This document shows positions 15,348-34,897 of a stretch of 64,000 nt of DNA, in pieces. The notes under the pieces were generated by a model, which was not told the DNA's origin, searched no databases, and saw nothing but the letters and a program-made list of their open reading frames with translations. Made by a program: the position numbers and the translations under genes. The DNA is taken from NCBI RefSeq assembly GCF_013372265.1, contig NZ_CP054051.1, forward strand, positions 1,500,587 through 1,564,586. Direction: 5' to 3'. Every line of letters begins with the position of its first letter. Within the stretch, counting starts at the first letter, position 1. The DNA is from Aliarcobacter cibarius. GTDB taxonomy: Bacteria; Campylobacterota; Campylobacteria; Campylobacterales; Arcobacteraceae.

Positions 15348-16084
15348 TTTTAGTTTATGATGGAACTTTTGAAGGTTTTTTATCTTTAGTTTATGAAGTT
15401 TATTATAAAAAATTAAAACCCATAAAAATATACAGAACTCTTCCAAATGAGATGATTTTTGATGATATTATAAAAATAGATACAACAAAAGAAGAATATG
15501 AAAAAGTTTTAAATGCACTAAAAATAAAATTTCCAAATGAGATGATTGAAAAAATTCTAAATATTTTTATGTGTGATTCAAAAGATTTTGAGCTAGCTCT
15601 TTTAGAGTATATTATTATTGGTTTCAAAGAGTCAAAACAACTATTTAATATAAATAACTCTTGTGTTTTTTATCTAAACTCTCTTGAAAAAGAGTTATTT
15701 AGAAATGTTCATAAAATGACAGGTTTTATAAGATTTGAAGAGCTAGAAGATAAGACTTTGTACGCTAAAATTGAATCAAAATTTAATGTAGTTTATTTTT
15801 TAGGAAAACATTTTCTAAAAAGATTTAACAACCAAAATTTCATAATTCATGACATAAATAGAAAACTTGCTTTTATAAAAATAGAAAATGATTTTTCTAT
15901 ACAAGAAGTTGCTTACTTTGATGAACCAATCTACTCTTCAAATGAAGAAAAATTCCAAAAACTTTGGAAAAGTTTTTTCAAAGGTGTAACTATAAATGAA
16001 AGAACAAATTTAAAGCTTCAAACTCAAATGGTTCCACTACTTTATAGAACTTATATGAGTGAATTTAAGAATCAAACTACTTGA
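15344..16084 (+). CDS. TIGR03915 family DNA-repair-associated protein (partner of radical SAM protein)
   Basis: A 246-residue protein starting MILVYDGTFEGFLSLVYEVYYKK, the typical N-terminus of TIGR03915, with a DUF4130 region in the middle (MTGFIRFEELEDKTLYAKIESKFNV, then LGKHFLKRF) and a C-terminal IYSSNEEKFQKLWKSFFKGVTI. The family is the obligate neighbour of the TIGR03916 radical SAM protein; the two are translationally coupled by an ATGA overlap. Its biochemical role is unknown, probably a binding or uracil-DNA-glycosylase-like helper. Its 3' end overlaps the convergent UbiB-kinase gene by 8 bases. Confidence 0.85.
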   Translation: MILVYDGTFEGFLSLVYEVYYKKLKPIKIYRTLPNEMIFDDIIKIDTTKEEYEKVLNALKIKFPNEMIEKILNIFMCDSKDFELALLEYIIIGFKESKQLFNINNSCVFYLNSLEKELFRNVHKMTGFIRFEELEDKTLYAKIESKFNVVYFLGKHFLKRFNNQNFIIHDINRKLAFIKIENDFSIQEVAYFDEPIYSSNEEKFQKLWKSFFKGVTINERTNLKLQTQMVPLLYRTYMSEFKNQTT

Positions 16085-17636
16085 TAAACCAAACTCTTAA
16101 AAATCCAAAAGAAACCAAAAGTAAAGCCAAATTTTTTAAGTTTTCATCATAAAAAACTAAAAACATTCCAAATAGAATAAAAGATAAAGATTTTAAATAT
16201 GAGCCAAAATAATCTTTTAAATCTTTTTTTATAAATTCCAGTTGATCTTTATTTAAAAGTACTTCAAGTTCACCCTTTGAACTTTTTGCAACCATATATT
16301 TTAGATTTTTTAAAAATTTTGGTATTGATTCTAACTCATCTAAAACTATTTCAGAAATAGTAGTTTTAATTCCTAGGGCTTTTGGAAGGTTATCTTTTAA
16401 AATTGGTAAAATATCTTTTACACCATTAAAATTTTCTATATATGTAGTTCCTAAACCTTCAATTATTGCACTAACTCTAAGTATATAAACAGCATCACTT
16501 GGTAGTTTAAAAGGTAAATCTCTTGTACTTTCTAAAACTTCAAATGCCAATTTTTGCATAGATTCACTAGATAGATTATCATTTGAGAAAATATCAAACA
16601 TTTTTTGACTAAACTCTACCATTAAACCTTCTGGTGCTTCATAGCTAATAGTTCCCAGCTTCTTGTTTGCTCTTACAAAGGTTTCAAAATCACCTCTATT
16701 TGCACCGTCAATTAACTCAATTATTGCAACTCTTGAATCATTTGCGATATTTTTAACCATTCCATAATCAAGTAAAATCAAATCTCCATTTGTATTTACA
16801 AGTAGATTTCCAGGGTGAGGATCTGCATGAAAATATCCATTTATTAGCATCTGTTCTGTATAAAAATTTACTAGTTTTGAAATAATTTGTATAAAATCAA
16901 TATCATATTTTTTTAAAGAAGCTTTGTCGTCAAATCTAAATCCTTCCATAAAACTCATAACAATAGCACTTTGAGAACAAAACTCTTCATAAGGTTTTGG
17001 AAATAAAATTCCACTATTTTCATAAGTAATAGAAAACTTTTTTAAATTTTCAAGTTCAATACTAAGATTTGTTTCATCTTTTATCATACTTGAGAATTCA
17101 TTTATAACAGCATCTATGGAATTTTTTGTGTAATATGAGAAAAGTGGTCTAAAAAGTTTATTGAAAAAATTTAATATTTTTATATCAACTCTTACTTGTT
17201 TTTCAATATTTTTTCTTCTTAATTTAACTGCTACTTTCGTATCATCTTCTAAAAAAGCAATATGAACTTGACCAATTGAAGCACTTGCAATTGGCTCATT
17301 TTCAAACTTTTTAAAACACTTTTCTTTGAAAGACTCTTTAAAAACTTTTTCAAAATCAGCTTTAGACATTTTTGGAAGTTTGTCATGAAGCTCTTTTAAC
17401 TCATCTAAATACTCTTTTGAAAAAAAATCAGACCTAGTTGCTAAAACTTGTGCAAGTTTTATAAAGCTAGCTCCTAAATAAAAAATTGTCTCTTTTAATT
17501 TTTTTGGTTTTAATGGTTTAATAAATAAAAAGCTATCCCTTTTTTTAATAAGTAAAAAAAGAGATAACAAAAATCTAAATATTAAATAAACCCTGTAAGG
17601 TGAAAAAAGTTTTAAATAAATATAAAAAGTTTTTAT
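16077..17636 (-). CDS. UbiB/ABC1-family atypical kinase, apparent AUA start
   Basis: A 519-residue ABC1/AarF/UbiB protein. The KxGQ-type motif is FIKLAQVLATRSD (A instead of G), the alanine-rich loop is IASASIGQVHIA, and the catalytic block is HADPHPGNLLV with LLDYGM as the metal-binding DFG equivalent. Two hydrophobic helices end the protein. Relatives are ATPases supporting quinone synthesis or lipid homeostasis. There is no ATG, GTG or TTG in the conserved N-terminus; the first canonical codon, TTG at 17570, would delete 22 family-like residues. An ATA at 17636 lies 6 bases after AGAGGA and overlaps the phasin stop as ATAA, so I take it as the start. Confidence 0.85.
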   Translation of the reverse strand: MKTFYIYLKLFSPYRVYLIFRFLLSLFLLIKKRDSFLFIKPLKPKKLKETIFYLGASFIKLAQVLATRSDFFSKEYLDELKELHDKLPKMSKADFEKVFKESFKEKCFKKFENEPIASASIGQVHIAFLEDDTKVAVKLRRKNIEKQVRVDIKILNFFNKLFRPLFSYYTKNSIDAVINEFSSMIKDETNLSIELENLKKFSITYENSGILFPKPYEEFCSQSAIVMSFMEGFRFDDKASLKKYDIDFIQIISKLVNFYTEQMLINGYFHADPHPGNLLVNTNGDLILLDYGMVKNIANDSRVAIIELIDGANRGDFETFVRANKKLGTISYEAPEGLMVEFSQKMFDIFSNDNLSSESMQKLAFEVLESTRDLPFKLPSDAVYILRVSAIIEGLGTTYIENFNGVKDILPILKDNLPKALGIKTTISEIVLDELESIPKFLKNLKYMVAKSSKGELEVLLNKDQLEFIKKDLKDYFGSYLKSLSFILFGMFLVFYDENLKNLALLLVSFGFLRVWFIK

Positions 17637-17896
17637 TTTAAATCCTCTTTTAACTTTTCTAAATCAGCTTTTGTAGCAACTCCAAGCTCATCTAAAACTT
17701 CTTTAAACATATCTTTTATTTTAGATTTAATTCTCTCATCTTCATCTTTTCCTTTTTGCTCTAAAGACTCTAAAAAGCTCTTTGCATCAGAAGTTTTAAT
17801 TTTTCCTTTTTCTTCAAGAGTTTTTAACTCTTCTTCAACTCTTTCTTTTAGCAGTAATGCTCCACCAAGTCCTGTAAATAAAATCTCTTTTAACAT
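17633..17896 (-). CDS. Phasin-like (PHA granule-associated family) small protein
   Basis: An 87-residue protein with a short hydrophobic N-terminus (MLKEILFTGLGGALLLKERVEE) and a charged helical remainder ending in the family-like VLDELGVATKADLEKLKEDL. Short phasin-like proteins of this type often accompany UbiB/ABC1 kinases, and here the stop overlaps the UbiB start by 4 bases. I chose the ATG at 17896, which has AAGGAG upstream; a start at 17980 would lie inside the upstream EAL gene. It is probably a lipid- or membrane-associated partner of the kinase rather than a true polyhydroxyalkanoate granule protein; that is inference. Confidence 0.72.
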   Translation of the reverse strand: MLKEILFTGLGGALLLKERVEEELKTLEEKGKIKTSDAKSFLESLEQKGKDEDERIKSKIKDMFKEVLDELGVATKADLEKLKEDLK

Positions 17897-33740: not shown

Positions 33741-34529
33741 CTAAGAAATATTTTTAAACTCTTTAAATAATTTTTTTGCATTATTTGTTGTTAAATTTAT
33801 TATTTCATCTTCTGAAAGATTTAATAGTTCTGCCATTTTTTGTGCAACATATACAGTATAATATGGCTCATTTCTAATACCTCTATAAGGATGAGGAGTT
33901 AAATAAGGAGCATCTGTTTCTATAAGAAGTTTACTTTTGGGGATTTTAGGTAAAATTTCTACTAATTTTTTTGCATTTTTAAAAGTAAGAACTCCACCTA
34001 TCCCAAAATAAAAATTATGATCAGCCAAAGGAAGTAAATGTTCACTTGCATTGAAACAGTGTAAAACACCACCAACTTCTTTAGCATTTTCATTTATCAA
34101 AATTTGTCTTGAATCATCAGAAGCTTCTCTTATATGAATAATAAGAGGTTTTTTATACTTTTTTGCCAAAGTTATTTGAGATATAAATACCTCTTTTTGT
34201 CTTTTTATATTCTCTTTTTTTTCTTCTTCATCTTCTGGAAGCCTATAATAATCTAATCCACATTCGCCAATAGCAACACATTTTGGATGATTTACATATT
34301 TTTCAATGATTGCTTCATCATATTTTTCAATATCATAAGGATGCGCACCAACAGCAAAAAATACTTCTTCATATTTTTCACTAAGTTTAATTGCTCTATC
34401 TAGTGTATCAAAATCTGCACCAGGAATTAAAAATCCATTAACACCTGCTTCTTTAGCATTTATTATAACACCTTCTATATCACTAAAATATGCTTCGTTG
34501 TCTAAATGACAATGTGTATCGATAATTAT
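33741..34529 (-). CDS. tatD: TatD-family metal-dependent hydrolase, apparent AUA start
   Basis: Read from 34529 the protein is 262 residues, the normal TatD length, starting (M)IIDTHCHLDNEAYF with the HxH metal site, followed by GVNGFLIPGADFDTL, AVGAHPYDIEK, AIGECGLDYYRLPE, PLIIHIREA, GGVLHCFNA and LIETDAPYLTPHPYRG. The reading frame is intact. The start codon is ATA, with AAGGA exactly 6 bases upstream (34536-34540) overlapping the stop of the previous gene. The first canonical in-frame start, ATG at 34169, would delete the metal site and almost half the protein. The family acts on DNA or in RNA/DNA quality control as a Mg-dependent nuclease. Confidence 0.9.
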   Translation of the reverse strand: MIIDTHCHLDNEAYFSDIEGVIINAKEAGVNGFLIPGADFDTLDRAIKLSEKYEEVFFAVGAHPYDIEKYDEAIIEKYVNHPKCVAIGECGLDYYRLPEDEEEKKENIKRQKEVFISQITLAKKYKKPLIIHIREASDDSRQILINENAKEVGGVLHCFNASEHLLPLADHNFYFGIGGVLTFKNAKKLVEILPKIPKSKLLIETDAPYLTPHPYRGIRNEPYYTVYVAQKMAELLNLSEDEIINLTTNNAKKLFKEFKNIS

Positions 34530-34538
34530 GGTATATCC

Positions 34539-34841
34539 TTATGACAATAATCTTTTATTTACTAAATTTATAATGTTATTAATTTGTGAAATATCTTTAC
34601 CTTTTATCCATGCATCTATTCCAAAATTTTTAAATGCATCATAATCACTCTCATCATCAATTACAGCGATAGAAGCAAACTTGTCTTTGCAAACTTTTGA
34701 TTTATTTTCTTCAAAATCAAAAATTGAATCAATTCCTAAAATAACGATATCAGCATCGCTTGAACTACCAGAAAAAGATTCAACATCAAACTCTTTATTA
34801 AATAAAGATGCATCTATATCATAAAAAGTAACTATTTTCAT
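34539..34841 (-). CDS. Small protein resembling a degenerate receiver domain
   Basis: A 100-residue cytosolic protein, KIVTFYDIDASLFNKEFDVESF, then ADIVILGIDSIFDFEENK, SIAVIDDESDYDAF and FGIDAWIKGKDISQINNIINLV. The alternating strands and helices, the late lysine in WIKGKD and the length recall a CheY-like receiver without a clear phospho-acceptor. I do not recognise the family with confidence. The ATG at 34841 fits AAGGA 6 bases upstream; an ATG two codons earlier abuts the Shine-Dalgarno. It lies between hslU (gap about 56 bases) and tatD in the same run. Confidence 0.6.
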   Translation of the reverse strand: MKIVTFYDIDASLFNKEFDVESFSGSSSDADIVILGIDSIFDFEENKSKVCKDKFASIAVIDDESDYDAFKNFGIDAWIKGKDISQINNIINLVNKRLLS

Positions 34842-34897
34842 AAACATTCCTTGGCTAAAAATTTAAGTCTAAACAATTCTATCTAAATATTTTTAAA

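Follow-up and report, generated by a model that had tools for sequence, protein, structure and literature searches.

To our knowledge, very few bacterial genes with non-canonical start codons have been characterised. Published examples are infC, sigR, ccpN, cvfC1, citZ and pcnB. The infC gene is described as starting with AUU in E. coli, ATC in Streptomyces and AUA in S. aureus (PMC5472188, PMC13009471). IF3, its product, is reported to disfavour third-base mismatches with CAU (PMC10158994), and re-initiation in E. coli is reported to respond to IF3 (PMC2268962). In a study of S. aureus, ribosome profiling sees the starts of infC (AUA), cvfC1 (AUU) and ccpN (AUA), the AUA of ccpN is conserved to B. 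subtilis, and the AUH (AUA, AUU or AUC) reporters tested yielded about 10% of AUG in minimal medium, with ccpN reaching up to 30% in rich medium (PMC13009471). The AUU start of E. coli pcnB is given in a title cited by that study (PMC13009471). Streptomyces sigR is reported to have a GTC start that is repressed by IF3 and has been misplaced by annotation pipelines (PMC5472188).

Here we describe a predicted start of this kind in tatD of Aliarcobacter cibarius, within a stretch of 64,000 nucleotides (the window). This gene resembles infC in its conserved AUH codon, lack of a canonical start and good Shine-Dalgarno sequence, and it resembles ccpN, cvfC1 and pcnB in being an ordinary gene with a near-cognate start. 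It differs from infC in that the infC product itself discriminates the codon (self-control), whereas here the AUH codon lies in tatD and infC has TTG. For ccpN and cvfC1, conservation among relatives comes with a measured reduction in yield, and for sigR a conserved non-canonical start that holds expression down is experimentally proven, whereas the tatD start of this family is predicted from sequence. We know of no free interchange for the AUA of ccpN or the AUU of cvfC1, whereas tatD interchanges AUA, AUU and AUC over the family, in several genera. Finally, sigR has GTC and is the first of two coupled genes; tatD has AUH and is the second. A search of the open-access literature returned no report on AUA, ATA or alternative starts of tatD or in Arcobacteraceae, a result that does not by itself establish their absence in print.

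The tatD frame and its proposed start site

The features of the locus, all on the minus strand, are as follows.

33741..34529, minus strand: tatD coding sequence, 262 codons with ATA start; matches PF01026 and TIGR00010
34527..34529, minus strand: near-cognate start codon ATA, aligned with ATG, TTG or GTG of outgroups, with an in-frame TAA three codons upstream
34536..34540, minus strand: Shine-Dalgarno AAGGA, 6 nt from ATA; the 16S rRNA 3′ end is of the usual kind
34539..34847, minus strand: small upstream open reading frame, 102 codons from ATG, its TAA 9 nt before ATA; a homologue lies upstream of tatD in the family

The first eight codons of the tatD frame are ATA ATT ATC GAT ACA CAT TGT CAT (I I I D T H C H), and its 262 codons end with the stop at 33741. 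The TAA at 34541-34539, which ends the upstream frame, also stands in the tatD frame, and GGA, TAT and ACC are the sole codons between it and ATA. The AAGGA at 34540-34536 shares its first two As with this stop. Downstream of ATA, the frame has no ATG, GTG or TTG until a TTG 120 codons further on, at 34169, and a start there would yield a product of 142 aa that lacks the N-terminal HxH.

The predicted product belongs to the TatD DNase family, with a full-length domain and the HxH at its N-terminus. Pfam PF01026 (TatD_DNase) matches at E 4.4e-80, with residues 3-256 on profile positions 1-253 of 253, and NCBIfam TIGR00010 matches at E 4.2e-83, with residues 2-256 on 1-252 of 253 and a score of 278.6, above the cut-off of 206. 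This full-length profile and N-terminal HxH are the same as in TatD/YcfH DNases, and TatD proteins of other Campylobacterota (among the best 80 of 448 relatives) differ only in having an ATG, TTG or GTG start. The gene is present as a single copy in the 2.34-Mb genome (threshold E <= 0.001). By these matches, the frame is that of a complete predicted metal-dependent DNase. The sequence-only reading of this locus had described a 262-codon tatD that begins with ATA ATT ATC GAT, with AAGGA 6 nt upstream overlapping the previous stop and a loss of about 120 residues were ATA not the start; each of these points is borne out by the frame as given above. The pseudogene that it had named as an alternative is excluded by the full-length profile match and the single copy.

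Conservation of the start across the Arcobacteraceae

Within the genus, tatD was found in 30 of 31 genomes, the window's own included, and in none of the sequence of G024 (87% complete). The start codon is ATA in 20 of these and ATT in 10; among them, G005 was scored ambiguous because a TTG that adjoins the Shine-Dalgarno stands two codons ahead of its AUH codon. A search of the family covered 104 genomes from 20 genera and found tatD in 100 (absent in four), and we compared the start regions of all 70 family genomes with tatD outside the genus. Taking as clear a case with no ATG, GTG or TTG from 12 codons upstream (or from an in-frame stop) through the third codon, 60 of the 70 are clear, with ATA in 49, ATT in 7 and ATC in 4. 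G176, with ATA plus a GTG within the Shine-Dalgarno, was scored ambiguous. In G230 (L038), counted as clear, the frame stays open further upstream and contains a TTG 23 codons before the AUH codon.

Across the 100 family genomes with tatD, 89 are thus clear AUH cases, 2 are ambiguous and 9 are canonical (ATG or GTG); ATA sums to 49 + 20 (the ambiguous TTG case included), ATT to 17 and ATC to 4. The canonical codon is GTG in all four genomes of g7 and ATG in the other five, standing at the same position in G187 and G210 but one codon further upstream in G211, G212 and G214; the genomes of g7, G187 and G210 are small (1.2-1.5 Mb). Given these nine genomes with ATG or GTG, the AUH start is not indispensable for tatD. 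Outside the family, 54 rows from a scan of named genomes (the best 80 of 448 relatives, with eight loci duplicating genus genomes, and with L060 and L054, taken to be G071 and G182, treated as family members) have ATG in 47, TTG in 6 and GTG in 1 at the aligned codon. In most relatives' tatD, AAGG or a similar Shine-Dalgarno lies 7-8 nt from the AUH codon; a 4-letter search found none in L052.

In these alignments an AUH start is the state of tatD conserved over most of Arcobacteraceae, with AUA, AUU and AUC interchanging. Sequencing error is excluded, as independently assembled genomes of about 90 species show the same ATA/ATT/ATC pattern. The sequence-only reading had taken AUA initiation as something that this one organism tolerates or uses. 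The non-canonical start stands, widened to AUH; the habit of a single organism does not, since AUH is conserved over most of the family. The comparison with related genomes that it had proposed found no ATG at this codon except in a few lineages (9/100 with ATG or GTG).

The small gene upstream is conserved along with this start. By tblastn (E up to 1), a homologue stands directly ahead of tatD in 46 of 47 AUH rows and also in L053, and in none of the 54 rows with a canonical start outside the family (among the best 80 of 448). Its product (34539-34847, minus strand) has no Pfam or NCBIfam match; by eye only, it looks like a degenerate receiver domain. The distance from the upstream stop to the AUH codon is -4 in 24 rows and +1 to +14 in 22, with eight gaps (-4, 1, 3, 9, 10, 12, 13 and 14 nt) that cover all three frames relative to tatD. 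Four rows (L002, L008, L020 and L052) have a stop in frame just one codon ahead of the AUH codon, and no canonical codon separates the two. These stops carry the distinction between a start and an internal isoleucine codon, because the three AUH columns (codons 1-3 of tatD) vary in the third base as Ile codons do. The Shine-Dalgarno distance stays steady while the frame of the upstream stop shifts, as initiation at the AUH codon would need. The co-occurrence of the small gene suggests that the AUH start is tied to a change in the operon and that the two genes may be translationally coupled. Avoidance of a TGA stop was considered as a cause of the ATAA overlap and rejected: overlaps of the ATGA type occur often in the sampled genome (25 sites versus 11 ATAA), so ATAA is not forced.

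The start column also lacks one codon. In an alignment of 47 AUH rows it contains ATA 34, ATT 12, ATC 1 and ATG 0, although one transition would turn ATA into ATG. To gauge A/G exchange, we used as a control all Lys/Glu/Gln columns conserved in at least 95% of rows of the same alignment. All of them, in a small empirical control of 17 columns, hold at least one G-ending codon, and the start column lies outside their range. ATG is therefore apparently excluded at this position, the third base never being G. Codons 2 and 3 are likewise AUH in nearly all rows. Over the family as a whole, AUG seems to be largely avoided at the tatD start, with reversion possible, as nine canonical genomes show.

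We placed these starts on a TatD tree of 102 rows, made by a quick method with the start residue masked. One group holds 46 of the 47 AUH rows plus one canonical row (L053), and the remaining AUH row (L060) lies outside it on a long branch. The AUH label requires 3 changes on this tree versus a mean of about 34 with shuffled labels, and ATA/ATT/ATC exchanges within the AUH group amount to at least 4 codon changes. This topology fits one old switch of tatD to AUH followed by a few returns, for which three changes are no proof.

Other genes with AUH starts

The window contains another gene with this arrangement, on the minus strand.

16077..17636, minus strand: ubiB-like kinase gene, ATA start at 17636-17634, in an ATAA overlap with the upstream stop; PF03109, E 1.3e-57
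17643..17648, minus strand: Shine-Dalgarno AGAGGA of ubiB, 6 nt from ATA, in the context AGAGGA-TTTAAA-ATA

The sequence-only reading had named ubiB as a companion case with the same 6-nt spacing, which agrees with this context and the ATAA overlap. Of the 31 genomes of the genus, 24 have a ubiB gene whose N-terminus could be read. ATA lies within ATAA in 23 of the 24, with the next canonical codon 20-89 codons downstream; the sole exception, G024, has a TTG start. The two AUH genes of the window, ubiB (16077-17636) and tatD (33741-34529), lie 16 kb apart. In E. coli, ubiB and tatD share one operon.

A wider search of the genome, also proposed in the sequence-only reading, yielded more such genes: 20 random 20-kb stretches (324 ORFs of at least 120 codons) contain two further genes that clearly have no canonical start near a Shine-Dalgarno, one encoding an Amidase_3 protein (L180) and one an RCC1-like protein (L185). 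The amidase gene lacks the 4-nt overlap in the window's genome. A search of the 31 genomes of the genus found it in 30, and 29 of the 30 have an AUH start (ATT 22, ATA 4, ATC 3), with TTG in L240. In 28 of 30 the AUH codon lies exactly 6 nt past GGAGA or GGGGA; in L239 a TTG directly follows the ATT. Elsewhere in the family, G071 has ATG and G097 has ATT. The amidase of G052 (L426), from outside the family, has ATA as its likely start, so the AUH habit is not confined to the family; the amidase genes of 7 other outside genomes have ATG. The RCC1-like gene encodes a long exported protein (L185:9559) and starts with ATC in the window's genome. Among 14 relatives it has an AUH start (ATC or ATT) in 7 and ATG in 7, so some AUH starts are not kept. 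Conservation holds for tatD, ubiB and the amidase gene in the genomes compared. One more frame drew attention, a zinc-ribbon transposase-like frame (L176:18937-19884, minus strand) that has neither a Shine-Dalgarno nor, over 107 codons, a canonical start; it is perhaps a frameshifted insertion element.

In a survey of ORFs of at least 120 codons, judged by eye, clear AUH starts in the window's genome (G000) number 4 of 389. The window, picked because of such starts, contributes 2 of 65, and the random stretches contribute 2 of 324. The single case among 191 ORFs of G013 is tatD, around which that stretch had been selected. The count is 0 of 152 in G097 and 1 of 151 in G156, of a related genus, where the ATC start of a RhlE-like helicase (L333:2823) follows AAAAAAGGA. 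No clear AUH start was seen among 348 ORFs of two genomes outside the family. These numbers are too small to support greater AUH use in the family than in its relatives. Codons linked to a Shine-Dalgarno before the first canonical codon show no clean AUH excess either (ATA 22/166 and ATT 33/172 versus AAT 39/203 and TTT 30/190). This count gives no support to genome-wide AUH abundance, and we therefore take single cases only. Inference of starts without codon identity, from codon usage and a Shine-Dalgarno score, was set aside as too noisy (AAA came second after ATG), as was a coordinate-based comparison with G013, which shares little gene order.

Translation machinery and explanations for the start

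The genome carries two identical initiator tRNA genes with a CAU anticodon, C1:A72 and three G:C pairs. No UAU anticodon was present among the tRNA genes that ARAGORN read from 53 Rfam hits, and we set aside a dedicated AUA initiator tRNA, with none seen among the tRNA genes. An altered anti-Shine-Dalgarno was likewise rejected, as the 16S rRNA 3′ end has the usual CACCTCCTT. Editing of the mRNA that gives ATA a G-like base would leave ATT and ATC unaccounted for, and was set aside too.

The sequence-only reading had also pointed to infC as a place to look for unusual IF3 residues. The start of infC is TTG in 30 of 30 Campylobacterota sequences (12 from the family and 18 outside; L216-L223 and others), so the textbook self-control by IF3 is not set up alike here. 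The protein has FLKGRE in 12 of 12 family sequences versus FLRGRE in 17 of 18 others (exception L192). This leaves the infC suggestion with one residue difference, a lead that is suggestive at best. The K/R residue before GRE is one that we take to be E. coli position 131. Changes at residue 131 affect codon discrimination, and lysine at this position occurs in other bacteria too. A search of the open-access literature for IF3 R131P found no paper.

We think it likely that tatD starts at ATA by means of the ordinary initiator tRNA and the Shine-Dalgarno, and that the near-cognate codon is kept to limit yield. The initiator tRNA (anticodon CAU) would initiate at the ATA at 34529 and place formylmethionine at the N-terminus, with the Shine-Dalgarno at its fixed distance positioning the AUH codon. 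The stop of the conserved small upstream gene, overlapping or near, probably couples the two genes by re-initiation, and the Shine-Dalgarno and upstream gene together would make the weak codon usable. The start appears to have stayed AUA, AUU or AUC through most of the family's history, with exchanges tolerated and AUG largely avoided. Selection for a weak, IF3-discriminated start may thereby keep TatD low or tunable; we infer the low level by analogy with infC, pcnB and ccpN, and control of the tatD start by IF3 is likewise suggested by analogy. The ubiB and amidase genes seem to share this start design. A broader idea is that a small set of AUH genes (tatD, ubiB, the gene of the cell-wall amidase and others) is under common post-transcriptional control in Arcobacteraceae, following the state of IF3 and the ribosome, aided by upstream coupling and with an adapted IF3; we put this forward tentatively and regard it as rather doubtful.

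A neutral origin is another explanation: AUH may have arisen once and work through re-initiation and a good Shine-Dalgarno, with no regulatory role. The upstream gene and AUH indeed co-occur (46/47 AUH rows versus 0/54 canonical rows outside the family, among the best 80 of 448), tatD rows most often show the ATAA overlap (24 rows), which 23 of 24 ubiB genes have as well, and nine lineages, some with small genomes, returned to or kept ATG or GTG. Tolerance alone, however, sits poorly with a start column in which G is absent from 47 rows though one transition away, while 17 of 17 control columns have G, and with an amidase gene that shows the same avoidance without the 4-nt overlap in the window's genome. 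We consider this explanation unlikely. Initiation at the second (ATT) or third (ATC) codon is very improbable. Both are AUH in nearly all rows, but they lie 9 or 12 nt from AAGGA, the ATG of outgroups aligns with the first codon, and the AUH codon of the amidase gene stands 6 nt from GGAGA in 28 of 30 genomes.

The ATA might instead be an internal isoleucine codon, with stop-codon readthrough or frameshifting joining TatD to the upstream protein, as might be supposed from the window, where the upstream frame is the tatD frame with only TAA between, and from three AUH columns that vary like Ile codons. The upstream stop lies in frame 0, +1 or -1 by lineage, so no single readthrough or frameshift fuses both genes and three recoding events would be needed. 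The constant-distance Shine-Dalgarno would be left unexplained, and the aligned codon is ATG, TTG or GTG in other Campylobacterota (among the best 80 of 448); we give this reading hardly any weight. A sequencing error, a pseudogene or a start at the TTG at 34169 has a negligible probability and, because the AUH state is conserved, is already refuted. It would be favoured by the lack of a canonical start, nothing else having been found for it, and it meets the same state in the assemblies of about 90 species, an intact full-length TatD profile match in single copy, and a 142-aa product without HxH.

If tatD starts at the near-cognate codon as we propose, the interchange of AUA, AUU and AUC with avoidance of AUG in this housekeeping nuclease gene offers a natural experiment on the reasons for keeping a weak start. 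The set of AUH genes would also make IF3-dependent control beyond self-regulation directly testable. For annotation, gene callers limited to ATG, GTG and TTG will shorten tatD, ubiB and the amidase gene in genomes of the family or overlook them.

Among the RNA genes of this genome, we also noted that the 16S rRNA (L346) has GTACTCACCGCCC in place of the common GTACACACCGCCC, a variant that is usual in Campylobacterota, and that a tRNA-Sec gene with a UCA anticodon is present (L343:88-182).
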